Assembly: GCA_031763025.1 (NCBI GenBank)
Contig: JASSKH010000001.1
Span: forward strand, 25,892,118 to 25,956,117
Direction: 5' to 3'
DNA: 64,000 bases
Source of the DNA: Macrocystis pyrifera
Taxonomy: Eukaryota; Sar; Phaeophyceae; Laminariales; Laminariaceae
In this document: positions 51 to 52,000 of the stretch, piece by piece
How positions within the stretch are numbered: position 1 is the stretch's first letter
Layout of the letters: each line of letters starts with the position of its first letter
Notes under the pieces: model-generated
Seen by the model: only the letters and a program-made list of their open reading frames with translations
What the model was told of the DNA's origin: nothing
Database searches by the model: none
Program-made: the position numbers and the translations under genes

Positions 51-2595
51 TGCTCTACCCCATACTCCATAGTCGCCATCGCAAAAGGCACATATTCCCA
101 CACAGGACGCAGGAAACAGCAGCTGGCAGGCCCTTTCGTGCGTGCTACGTTATATTTTGGGGTTTCCGGTCGTTTTCGTGTTCGTGTTCGATACAATCGG
201 ATATCGTTCTGAAATCCTCGCACAAACAAAAAAATCGGATAAAAAACTACCAGGTAGATATGTTTTCGTAATTTTTCGTCGAAATTTATTTTTTTGTGTG
301 ATTTTGTAATCGGGCCTTTGCACCGGAATATTTATTGCGTTCTGAAATTCGCAAGGCCAGGGCACGTTCGTGATGTTTTTTCCGCCACTGCACTACTGGG
401 AACGATATATCTCTGCTGTGTTCTCCTGCTGTGCAGTCAACCTCCAGCCGGACGAGGTACGCGGGCGGGTTAGGTCTGCGCTCCATCCAGCTGACAACCG
501 CTGGCAGAGGTGAGGCCATCGTGAAAGAAAAGGCCAGCGTCGCCTCTTCTGTTGTGCGGTATTGCGATCAGCGATTATACAGCTGTGTGATATCAGAGCA
601 GAGCCGTACGTCAAGCTCGGGTTAAAAATCAACAGTCTCGTCAAGAGCACGTACTACTGCTGTACAGGTGAGGTCTGCTCGGCTGCACGATGCGAGTCTT
701 CATCTAGCCCGGTACCAGGTACTAGAGGGGCAACGTAGCCATCGTCTTGGATACAAACATAGCATTGATGGTCGCGTGGGCGCTTCGTGGCAGGCTCGCT
801 GCTGCAAGTGTCTCGCTCGCTGCACACACCGTAGGCAATGAGCCGAGCTCAGCTCAACTTGCAACTTGCAGAAAACAACGAATACAAGTACTGGTTCGTA
901 ATAATATGTTCGCAAATGTAATTAACGTTTGTTCATTAATATTAATAATAAAGTGGTCATTAAATGTCCGGACATCGTCATTGGGTCTGACCATGATGGT
1001 GAAGTCAAGGCAACCTTTGTGCGAAGATATGTAGGTACCACTTGTCCGGAAATATAAGATATGTGTACATATTAATTTGAATACTCAAATGATCCTTACA
1101 TTTCTGTCTGCAGGGGTAATTTACAGGTAGAATTCTCATATACCTACTCGTACTATACACGTGCTGCTGTGCTGCTGCTGCTGCTGCTGCGGTACTCTGA
1201 GCAATTCTGTTAGCTGTGGCTGTGCACAGCAGGAGCAGGAGCAGCAGCAGCAGCAGAAGCAGCAGCTCTGTGGCCTGTTATAGCCTAGCCTGCTCTCAGG
1301 TTGGTGGTGCCTGCACACACCCTTGGCTCTCTGTGTCCTATTTTCTACTCGTAGGGGTATTTTTTTTGTTTTTTTTTTTGTTTGGTTCATTTTTCTAATA
1401 TTGTTCCAATGCGAAGGGGTGCCAGTCGCGGGCCAGCCGCCGCTCCCCTTCCCCCCCGCCCCCCCCCCCCCCGCCATCATCGATCGAGGATGATGCCCTG
1501 AGCGGTGGCTCCGTCTCGCGCTCTTCGCAAGGATATTCGCGCAGTTCGGCAGTAGTCTACTGCTGCATTGTTGCTGTGCGCAGCTCCCGACAGGTCTCTT
1601 CCATATATTTAATGGACAGAGAGTAGGTACGCTCGTACAGACACAGCTGTAGGTACCACTGCCGTACACAGCCACATACATACACACGTACGTGCAAGCA
1701 AGGTACCAACCTTCTTATTTGTATACTTCAAGTAGTGGTACCAGGGAAAACGCGCAAGTAATTCCCGACCTCGGGTTTTCTGTTCAAATTTTTGATGGCC
1801 GTTGCATCTACGGTATCTCCAACAGCTTTGATACAACAGCAGCAGTGTACCATGGGTGTATGATACCAGGTATGACACGAAGGAGCCCAGGCCCTCTGAC
1901 TCTGGTATGTATGACATGATTATGACAAACAAAACAGCAGTCGTGCTTCCAGTAGTACAGCAGCAGTAGCAGAATACCCGGTATTAATATTAAATACCAG
2001 GTAGTGCACAGCAGTGGCCGTCGGCGGGGAAAGAAGAGGAAGGAAGGAGAGCCGTTGTTGTTGTTGCTTCTCCTTTTTCCTTTGCTGCGGGCACAGCACC
2101 CGCTGCAAGCATGCGTGCAGCTTTTTTCTGATTGCTGATGCACGTATGATATGCTCCATCCTTCCACCTACATGATCCACACCAGTATATACGGCAGCAG
2201 TATTAATAGTAGGTGGTACCAGGTGTCCTTTTTTATCGGGTACCTGCGTCCACGTTTTTCGGGACAAATTACTTAGAATTAGTGTAGTTTTTTTTTTTCC
2301 GGTGGTTTTGCTGCTCGTCACTTTTTTTCGACCCTTTTCCCACTCGAGGTCCCCAGAGCAACAGGTGAAGTCGCAAGTTGTACCTTGTGCTCGTGCCCCA
2401 ACGAGCCTTGCAGCTATGATATGATGCTGATGTGTTGATTGCAATCAGTTAGGTCTGGGCACTGGCACAGCGGGCGGTGCGGCGGTACGTCGTAGTAATC
2501 TACTTGGATATTAATAGCAGCCATCTACTGATTGAGCCGGCCAGTGGTGCTGCCAGTACATTTGATCTAATAATATGTACGTGCAAGAAACGCGC

Positions 2596-49000: not shown

Positions 49001-52000
49001 TCACTTGCTCCCCGACACACCGACACACGCAAGTCCTCTCCCACATATGCTTGCTGCATGGGAAGGTGGAAATATATGCTACACGTTTTGCATTCGCTCC
49101 CCCCCCCCGCCCAGCCCCCACCCAGCTACTTTTTTCGGAGGGAAAGACGAGAAGAGCCCCCCGCTCACCAAAATCCTTCAGTCGCATGCAAAACCTGATC
49201 ACATATTCATGGTACACGTCCCCCTTGCCTTGCCCCCTCCCCCCCCACCTTCCCCTACCCCCTCCCTTCACCCCTTAGCCTCCCCCTCGCTCCCCTCCCA
49301 TCCCCACCCCCACCTCATCCCCTCTTACCCCCCCCCCCCCCCCCCGCCTGGGTTGGCGTCGGTTGGCGTTGACGCTGCGAAATACGCCTCTCACTGCGTG
49401 AGCCAGACAACTAGGGTACGGTTTTTTAATAATTGCTTTGGGCGGTCGCCACGGTTGGCGATCGAGTCAGATCATTTTTGTGCGGGGAAAACCTTGAGTC
49501 CGCACAACAGGATTGATCGTTTCACCTATTACGGGGGTCCATAGTTAAATAGGACCTATGGTACGCACAAAGCCCTATGTATTTACCTATTTTTACTAAT
49601 AAAAGTTGGTCCCATTAACTATGGACCCCCGTGATAGTGTGCGTACGGTAAGGCATCCACGAGGCAGGTACATAATATACCCATTGGTGTCTCTGGAAGT
49701 GGCCGCACTAGAAAGCAATTCAATTATTCCGGAGCTGTCATGGATTGCGAGTCCCGCCTCGCAGGCGGTTCTTAGTTCGGATGCAGCTCACCCTTCATGC
49801 GACTCACCGAATACCTCACGGCGCTTCGCGCTCGGTGCGATGTCTGCCTGGTCGGTGAAGACCCCACGTGCTCCGTCTCGGCATTGTAGGGATGCGAGGT
49901 TCTATGGTCATACGACTACGGCCACGCATGATGTCGAGTACCCCCCCCCCCATTCTATGGTCATACGACTACGGCCATGCATGAGATCAAGTACATCCCT
50001 CCTATCGAGTACCCCCCCCCCCCCCCCCCCCCCGAATTCGATAATGAGTACACCCCCCCCTCGTCCTCCCCACTCCGCCGCCGCCGATGTGCACGCCGTG
50101 CTTGCCTTGCCTTTGCTTTTCCCGTTCCCTGCCTGGTCTTCCCTTGCCGTGCTTTGCCCTGCCTCTGCCTTCCCCTCGTCTTGCCTTGCCTTGCTCTTCC
50201 AGGTTTCACCCCCTGTGTGGCGCGGCTAGGGCGGCGGAAGTGCTAGCAGAAAACGAGGAGGGTGGCCTGGGCACGGAGATCACCATCCTGTGTGACACTC
50301 ATATTCTGCAGGTGAGAGGCGGGAGGGGCAGGAGGGAGGGTGGGATGGGCGGGGTACTAACCTAATGCCATGGCCGTATGACCATGGACCCTCGCATCGC
50401 TACAATGCTGGGACGGAGCAGACGACGATGTGGTGTGGTATGAGGTTGTAGGGTGTACTGCGATGCCTTTCAGCGCTTTGCTATTCTTCACGATCCTTGT
50501 GCGATGCGTTGCGGTGGCGATGCGCAGCAGTCGCTGCCCCCTCCCCGCCGCCGCCCTGCTCGCGGCGCCCCCGGCACAAGACTGTCTTTTCGGATGCCTT
50601 GCCGTAACCGTGCCTCTGCTTGTATGTGTGTTTCCCTGCAAACTTGGTGCTCGCCCCCGTCTCGTCTCGTCTCGTCTTGTGTTTTGTTTTTCGTTTTTGT
50701 TCTGGCCGGCGGTGGCGGCGGTGGCGACCGCCGCGGCGCAGGCTGATGGAGACTGCTCGATGTGCGGCGGGAGCGGGACGGCGGGGGAAATGGCCAGATG
50801 CTGCCGGTGCAACACACACTACCACGCGGTATGTGTACAAAACCACGAAAGCAATATATATATACGAGGTGTAAATATCGAGAGTACACGGGAAAAAAAA
50901 AGAGAGAGAAAACGACATACACTCCTTCCCAAGGCCAGAAGGAGGAGCAAATCAGAATAGTAAAATATGTACAGTATGTATGTGTAATACTGCTTTACGT
51001 GTTTTTTGTGTACCCCCCCCCCCCCCCCCCCCCCCCCCCGTGTTTTGAGGCTCAAAAATGTAGGTGGCGTGTCGTGTTTTGTTTTTTCGAGTATCCCTGG
51101 GTATACATGCAGTCCCTTAAAGTTATACCTGGTACCACTCCGTCCCGGATACGAAGACCACTTTTATATTAAAAATCACTATGGGAGGTCCTTATGCGCC
51201 GGGACGTTGGTATTACGGGGGTCCATAGTTAATAGGACCTATGGTACACATAAAAACCTACATATTTCCCTATTTTTACTAACAATATTTGGTCCTGTTA
51301 ACTATGGACCCCCGTAATAGTCATTTTTTTTCCCCTTTTTGGCTATTTAAGAAGGAAAAAGGACGAGTACAGCACCGACCACTTTGAGGGTGTTTGCGAT
51401 AATCCAATTGGCCAAAATTGAGGTTGGGTTATAAAAGTGTTTTTAAACCAACAAATTGGAGGAGCTGGTTGGTCAGACAGGTGAATCCGAAGGCCCTACA
51501 TAGCCAGTCAGAAGTTTGTTGCCCCGTTTGCCAACCAACCCGATAAGAAGGGTCAACCCCAGCCCAAGAATCGTCAGGTTAAAATCGTCTTTTTTTGGTT
51601 GCTTTTTCCCGCAGCCTTCAGAAGGGGTCCTCCTAATTTTTCGTGGGTTGGGATGGCCACAGTAGTGCCGGTCCCTCTATAGTGTGGGTTGAGTGGTGCC
51701 GGCTTTCCCGCTATAGTGCCTGTGAAATCGCTGGGCACAGATGGGATCACTCAGTGTGGCCGTGTGCAGAGTAGTTAGTGCCGGTTTGCCGCTGCAATAG
51801 TGCCGGAATCGTTGGTTGGGGCGTACCGGCACTATAGAGAGACCGGCACTAGTGTGTTTTGTAGGGAACGGAGTACGAGAAAGCCCACCAAAGTTGGTTT
51901 CAACCACATTATAGTTGGTTTCAACCACATTATAGTTGGTTTCAACCACGTTATAGTTGGTTTCAACCACATCATAATTGGTTTCAACCACATTGTCGGC

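Follow-up and report, generated by a model that had tools for sequence, protein, structure and literature searches.

A seven-base gain at TA dinucleotides in the kelp Macrocystis pyrifera is probably the excision footprint of a TA-inserting transposon

In the kelp Macrocystis pyrifera the palindromic word TACCWGGTA, in which W is A or T (TACCAGGTA and TACCTGGTA), is gained at single TA dinucleotides as an addition of seven bases, and it is probably the footprint that remains after excision of a cut-and-paste transposon which inserts at TA. The word was studied in a window of 64,000 nucleotides (the whole stretch of DNA that was analysed, C189:25892118-25956117) and counted over an assembly of 223 contigs that total 537,376,219 bases. 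It is found 121,279 times against 2,421 times for the reversed word, i.e., at about 50 times the control, which amounts to about one copy per 4.4 kb and an excess over the control count of about 119,000 genome-wide. A preliminary description of the window had reported at least 18 exact copies, taken these to be far above chance and named a genome-wide count near expectation as the outcome that would speak against them. All 18 copies were recovered, against a mean of 0.32 and a maximum of 2 in 100 dinucleotide shuffles, and the genome-wide count came out opposite to that outcome.

Frequency of the word

TACCAGGTA is present in the window at 248..256, 713..721, 1864..1872, 1995..2003, 3906..3914, 4884..4892 and 10706..10714; the flank of the copy at 4884 was read as having TACCAG directly before it, so that this may be a compound footprint. 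Three further copies form a cluster at 44861..44869, 44876..44884 and 44946..44954, and TACCTGGTA is found at 14042..14050, 17143..17151, 43140..43148 and 51126..51134. The remaining four copies, all TACCAGGTA (17171..17179, 29768..29776, 29796..29804 and 32002..32010), lie in a decayed exon copy and in miniature inverted-repeat transposable elements (MITEs), and are treated below. All are exact matches to which no strand is assigned.

A sample of 264 kb, consisting of the window and 20 stretches of 10 kb at steps of 1 Mb along the same scaffold, holds 76 copies (58 in the 200 kb of blind stretches and 18 in the window) where a fourth-order Markov model predicts 3.7, and TACCWGGTA is the most frequent word of the form TA-N5-TA in it. 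Adding two 3 kb loci that had been chosen for holding the word gives a 270 kb sample (270,018 bases) with 80 copies, four of them from these two loci, against a Markov expectation of 3.8. Among palindromes with at least 12 copies in this larger sample, only AT repeats and the MITE word TAGGACCTA are more enriched. An origin by chance or base composition was rejected on the shuffles, the reversed-word control and the Markov model. Three stretches on other scaffolds hold 1, 0 and 1 copies, and density therefore varies among scaffolds. Along contig C1 the word repeatedly comes in pairs with a spacing of about 400 bp (21279/21684, 37259/37671, 61537/61937, 76999/77405 and 89165/89565), which suggests a duplicated segment.

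Words that differ from TACCWGGTA by one substitution are mostly near expectation in the 270 kb sample. Those that are enriched are largely transitions, and comprise TACCAGGCA (12 vs 3.7 expected), TATCAGGTA (8 vs 2.3), TACCAGGTG (8 vs 3.7), TGCCAGGTA (7 vs 2.7) and TACCSGGTA (6 vs 1.7). We read this enrichment as decay of the word, at a roughly estimated few percent per base.

Gain of the word at single TA dinucleotides

Relatives that span the junction were found in the 270 kb sample for 8 of the 79 sites with enough flank, which is a lower bound, as a double copy in L015 sits in a MITE and yet was not caught by the relative search. Where filled and empty relatives can be compared, the relatives have a single TA and the filled copies have two TAs around CCWGG. 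The clearest cases are in two MITE copies of the window, both on the forward strand. The first (approximate extent 29691..29819) holds the copies at 29768 and 29796, and at 29796 a bare TA is seen in 24 of 27 aligned MITE rows. The second (31954..32070, with arms at 31954-31982 and 32041-32069) holds the copy at 32002, for which 46 aligned rows divide into 25 with a bare TA, 8 with a mutated TA, 10 gapped and 3 others. In the decayed exon copy, TACCAGGTA at 17171 stands where the related exon stretch (17413..17439, forward strand) has a single TA and serves as the empty counterpart. At 29768, 36 of 38 rows are gapped and the alignment to empty relatives is ambiguous, making a gain there plausible and not decisive. 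Of the four empty-relative cases put forward in the preliminary description, 29796 and 32002 are thus clean and 17171 is supported, and 29768 is reduced to a plausible case. Outside the window, a bare TA is seen in the best relative of L009:4818, close to a gap of 3 bases; the other five rows are altered or gapped.

For fifty MITE copies compared with the typed family sequence, 28 insertions of at least 3 bases were listed. Six are of the CCWGG type and lie in four copies, namely two of the window (one near 29690, with two such insertions, and one near 31954), a copy in L012 (as TAAACCAGGTA) and a copy in L015 (as a double); no other kind of insert recurs among the 28.

Insertion alleles were also collected genome-wide without presupposing the word: wherever two conserved MITE blocks that usually abut at a single TA were separated by 1-31 bases, the intervening letters were taken, whatever they were. 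The first site (CACAAAAACC/TATATATTT) gave 112 + 109 = 221 insertion alleles and the reversed pattern gave 0. The first 100 of the 221, in contig order, comprise 41 exact gains (29 TACCAGG and 12 TACCTGG) and 6 alleles that hold the full TACCWGGTA with further bases. There are also 7 substitution variants and 17 length variants, and the other 29 alleles include 14 that are an extra TA. The length variants, which mostly alter the centre of the word, are TACTGG (3), TACCAG (3), TACCGG (2) and TACCAGGG (2), with TACGG, TACCG, TACAG, TACCATGG, TACCAGTGG, CTACCGG and TATAATACCAG seen once each; TACAG could equally be a footprint of the Sleeping Beauty type. As length variants outnumber substitution variants (17 vs 7), we infer that most of them arose at birth, as joining products of two broken ends. 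The gain takes place at single TAs and shows a heterogeneity like that of end joining, and the change from TA to TA-CCAGG-TA that had been proposed from the window alone is borne out by an assay blind to the word.

The second site (GGTCCTATTTAC/TATGG) gave 483 + 493 = 976 insertion alleles and 0 for the reversed pattern. The first 100 of the 976 include 13 TACAG or TACTG of the Sleeping Beauty type, and TACCAGG, TACCAGGTACCTGC, TACCAG, TACCG and a TACCCGG compound once each. The dominant insertion product differs between the two MITE sites. At the second site, which belongs to the family exemplified by window 31954-32070, TATG makes up 23 of the first 100 insertion alleles, possibly through tandem duplication or slippage, or as a MITE subfamily.

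Target preference

Counted outward from the TA, position +6 is T in 77 of 162 flanks, where the background is 0.25 (p=8e-10). Position +7 is W in 126 of 162 against a background of 0.53 (p=7e-11), and Y at +1 and W at +3 are preferred more weakly; 67 isolated sites give the same pattern. The target preference is symmetric around the TA, and occupancy per TA is 30/12294, 40/3755 and 11/385 when TW occupies +6/+7 on 0, 1 and 2 sides, respectively. No bias at +6/+7 with p<0.002 was found for TACCWGG without a second TA (97 cases), TACWGTA (100), TAGWCTA, TAAWTTA, TATWATA or TACGWCGTA. TACSGTA (71) is biased in other ways, among them towards A at +7, and this is attributed to its MITE copies; TACATA and TACGTA have weaker biases elsewhere, and TACN3GTA, which includes the word, shows the bias of the word.

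The word fits its own target preference, which is in line with the occurrence of tandem doubles such as TACCAGGTACCTGGTA, of which three were found (L010:2744, L015:2290 and L020:3925) against 0.8 expected. Doubles are also seen in the MITE assays, and they are apparently new footprints set in the TA of older ones. Neighbour pairs within 100 bp number 9 against 3.3 expected (p=0.0045). Without the three tandem pairs, which are 7 bp apart, the excess falls to 6 against 3.0 (p=0.08), and local hopping is therefore not claimed.

Search for a donor element

A profile search with DDE_3, in which three candidates were scored, gave 0 matches, and one with the mariner profile Transposase_1 also gave 0 but is uninformative, as its control matched nowhere either. 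DDE_1 matched 39 times, with E below 1e-17 in 18 cases and with many matches on small contigs. The DDE_1 gene of L029-L034 (on C162, C32, C194 and C202) has open frames of 287-341 amino acids in L029-L032, and the blocks of this family span at least the 9.5 kb that was fetched, two 9 kb copies differing by about 2% mismatches. No terminal inverted repeat beginning with CCWGG was found in copies L028-L034, the part of the 39 that was examined. This family was rejected as the donor, as its copies extend throughout these 9.5 kb and CCWGG ends were not found in them. A second DDE_1 gene, at L028:1450-2487, is about 72% identical to the other family over 960 bp; read by eye it has MN where the transposase motif has DN.

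The preliminary description had suggested searching for TA-flanked elements with CC...GG ends, and none came to light in the material covered here. An inverted-repeat scan of the 270 kb sample for TA-ended pairs 60 to 6000 bp apart returned 354 pairs, among which MITE ends are commonest. Self-excision of the MITEs was rejected as the source of the word, as their ends are TATTACGGGGG and not CCWGG. A 300 kb self-comparison for nested insertions gave 201 candidate gaps, and MITE arrays dominate those listed. Of ten longer open reading frames in the sample, the only match was to Es2, by two frames of L007, one of them below the cut-off. The donor may be rare, divergent or extinct. Among other brown algae, Ectocarpus has 17 Mariner-Tc1 families with almost 12,000 copies (PMC12477816), and a brown-algal source of this kind is accordingly plausible by analogy. 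The main text of that paper has the word footprint 0 times, and no link to CCWGG was seen.

Two long tandem-repeat tracts in the window (34609-35344 and 38044-39644) are open in several frames, with CTL and CLSV / TDRQ repeats in translation.

Origin of the word

The symmetric target preference and the length variants speak for repair after excision. An element inserted at TA would duplicate the TA, and when excised, presumably by a DDE-type transposase, would leave at each donor flank the TA and its own first bases as a 3' overhang. If both ends of the element began with CCAGG, the two overhangs could pair as C-G, C-G, A:A, G-C and G-C, with the central mismatch as the only one, and repair of A:A to either strand would give TA-CC(A or T)GG-TA. 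The logic would be that of the Sleeping Beauty product TA-C(A/T)G-TA, with five retained bases rather than three. Imperfect joining of the same ends could give the minor products TACTGGTA, TACCAGTA, TACCGGTA, TACCATGGTA and TACCAGTGGTA, the last of which would need four bases of one end and three of the second, and such scars would have piled up to the excess seen genome-wide. Given that the word is an excision footprint, we lean towards an overhang of five bases. More tentatively, it is conceivable that the kelp has or had TA-inserting transposases of a lineage whose cut lies five bases inside the element and leaves self-complementary CCAGG overhangs, with efficient excision and clean sealing, and that this lineage is now visible mainly as some 119,000 scars, resident copies being few or absent.

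The same nine letters could also come from an excision with a stagger of three bases, in which CCA/CCA overhangs overlap by a single A:A and two bases are filled in on either side. A stagger of this size agrees with the cut of two to three bases described for Tc1 and mariner (PMC2170065), and TACCATGGTA, one row of the first 100 at the first MITE site, is the product expected if two CCA overhangs were filled in and then joined at their ends. Yet a single A:A contact provides no pairing, and a product making up 41 of 100 rows would not be expected from it; TACCAGTGGTA, also one row, requires four bases from one end, and complementary CCAGG ends account for the exactness of the product. We regard the three-base stagger as rather unlikely. 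The preliminary description had left open whether the word is a footprint or an ultra-short insertion. An enzyme that adds TACCAGG directly at TA, with no long element ever present, would suit the very uniform product and the searches that turned up no donor, but length variants are commoner than substitution variants (17 and 7 of 100 rows), which indicates the repair of two broken ends, the footprint logic of Sleeping Beauty covers the word, and TACWGTA is in excess here as well. We are not aware of an enzyme with the ability to insert a free 5-mer. Because of the length variants and the symmetric target preference, excision repair is favoured over a fixed ultra-short insertion, which we consider improbable.

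The word could also be a protein-binding or otherwise selected motif, like HIP1 in cyanobacteria, that was enriched through point mutation and selection. In favour of this, TACCWGGTA is palindromic and sharply defined, with one-substitution neighbours mostly near expectation, and the copy at L008:8565 did arise by substitution. Copies that are seven-base gains in MITE copies and in a decayed exon do not fit this, and neither length variants nor a flank preference outside the word would be expected from it, which leaves selection very improbable. Carriage of the word by one amplified repeat family is hardly credible: some copies are in MITEs and in the recurring pairs on contig C1, but 71 of the 79 sites are without a junction-spanning relative in the 270 kb sample and the flanks differ where printed, on which ground a single carrier family was rejected.

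Several observations weigh against excision of a TA-inserting transposon, or against the form of it favoured here. Neither the donor element nor its transposase was found in the searches made. Inverted repeats starting with TACCWGG amount to two pairs in 270 kb (L010 8307/8390 and L012 843/2742), taken for chance, which match at 18 of 24 places, nine of these being the word itself. Between the two 9 kb copies of the DDE_1 blocks, none of the 12 indels of 2-60 bases listed is of the footprint type. All three relatives of L008:8565 carry GACCAGGCA, and this copy therefore arose by substitution, and the relatives of L016:5602, L021:7200 and L022:1937 align too poorly to be judged. At the first MITE site, where the orientation of the target is fixed, the centre is A in 29 and T in 12 of the first 100 alleles (p=0.012), an excess that is not predicted if the ends are identical and mismatch repair is unbiased. 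It would be accounted for by ends that differ or by repair that favours one strand. Among the first 100 alleles at the second MITE TA, those of the CCWGG type are in the minority. No flank bias at p<0.002 was found for TACCGGTA (15 cases), TACCSGGTA (7) or TACCAGTA/TACTGGTA (23), the cases being few. Finally, the stagger of five would exceed the two to three bases reported for Tc1/mariner relatives in the literature consulted.

Significance

As a rule the scars of excision cannot be counted, being too short or too variable. With one nine-letter scar that stands out 50-fold over its control, past transposition can be measured even where the element itself is gone, i.e., its rate, age, target choice, double hits and the outcome of repair at a fixed site. 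If a five-base stagger is correct, the range of cut geometries known from TA-inserting transposases would become wider, and the clean sealing would be explained by self-complementary ends; if the transposon itself is now mainly a ghost, its scars would be a genome-wide clock of past jumping. As a gain of seven bases shifts reading frames, the process is potentially mutagenic in an organism that is a major marine producer. For annotators there is a caution in that a palindrome of this abundance need not be a regulatory motif.

Comparison with known transposons

The footprint of Sleeping Beauty results from annealed 3' overhangs with a central mismatch. After the cut by its transposase, 3' overhangs of three bases remain at the donor site, and the footprint is equal to the overhang (PMC7827188); TACAGTA and TACTGTA have been used as this footprint (PMC3432063). 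The kelp word resembles it in the duplicated TA and in the palindrome with A or T at the centre, and differs in keeping five bases instead of three, in its number of about 119,000 above control, and in that the searches made turned up neither the element nor its transposase. TACWGTA itself occurs 182,385 times genome-wide against 70,689 for the reversed control (2.6 times), an excess that is less specific given the high background of a 7-mer. The kelp therefore probably carries the scars of at least two TA-inserting families.

Tc1, mariner and ISY100 have TA as their target, and the footprints of Stowaway MITEs and plant mariners vary; elements of the hAT superfamily duplicate eight bases of target. 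The likeness of the kelp system to the first group lies in the TA target, in cut-and-paste movement and in a cut that would be placed inside the element. In Tc1, mariner and ISY100 the excision cuts fall two to three bases inside the 5' ends of the element (PMC2170065), whereas five bases are kept in the dominant kelp product (41 of the first 100 alleles), which would point to a longer stagger. At excision sites of Stowaway and plant mariners the target site duplication and short element ends remain (PMC4561436), as would be the case here, but in the kelp one word dominates the genome. PIF/Harbinger elements make a 3-base target duplication and mostly excise precisely, and hAT elements build palindromic footprints from flanking DNA (PMC4561436); the kelp word departs from both, as it has a 2-base TA duplication with a 5-base residue, and this residue is the same in differing flanks. 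In the open-licence literature searched there was no report of the TACCWGGTA words or of a brown-algal transposon excision footprint. The kind of footprint is already known, and its five-base form and its scale are new to that literature.

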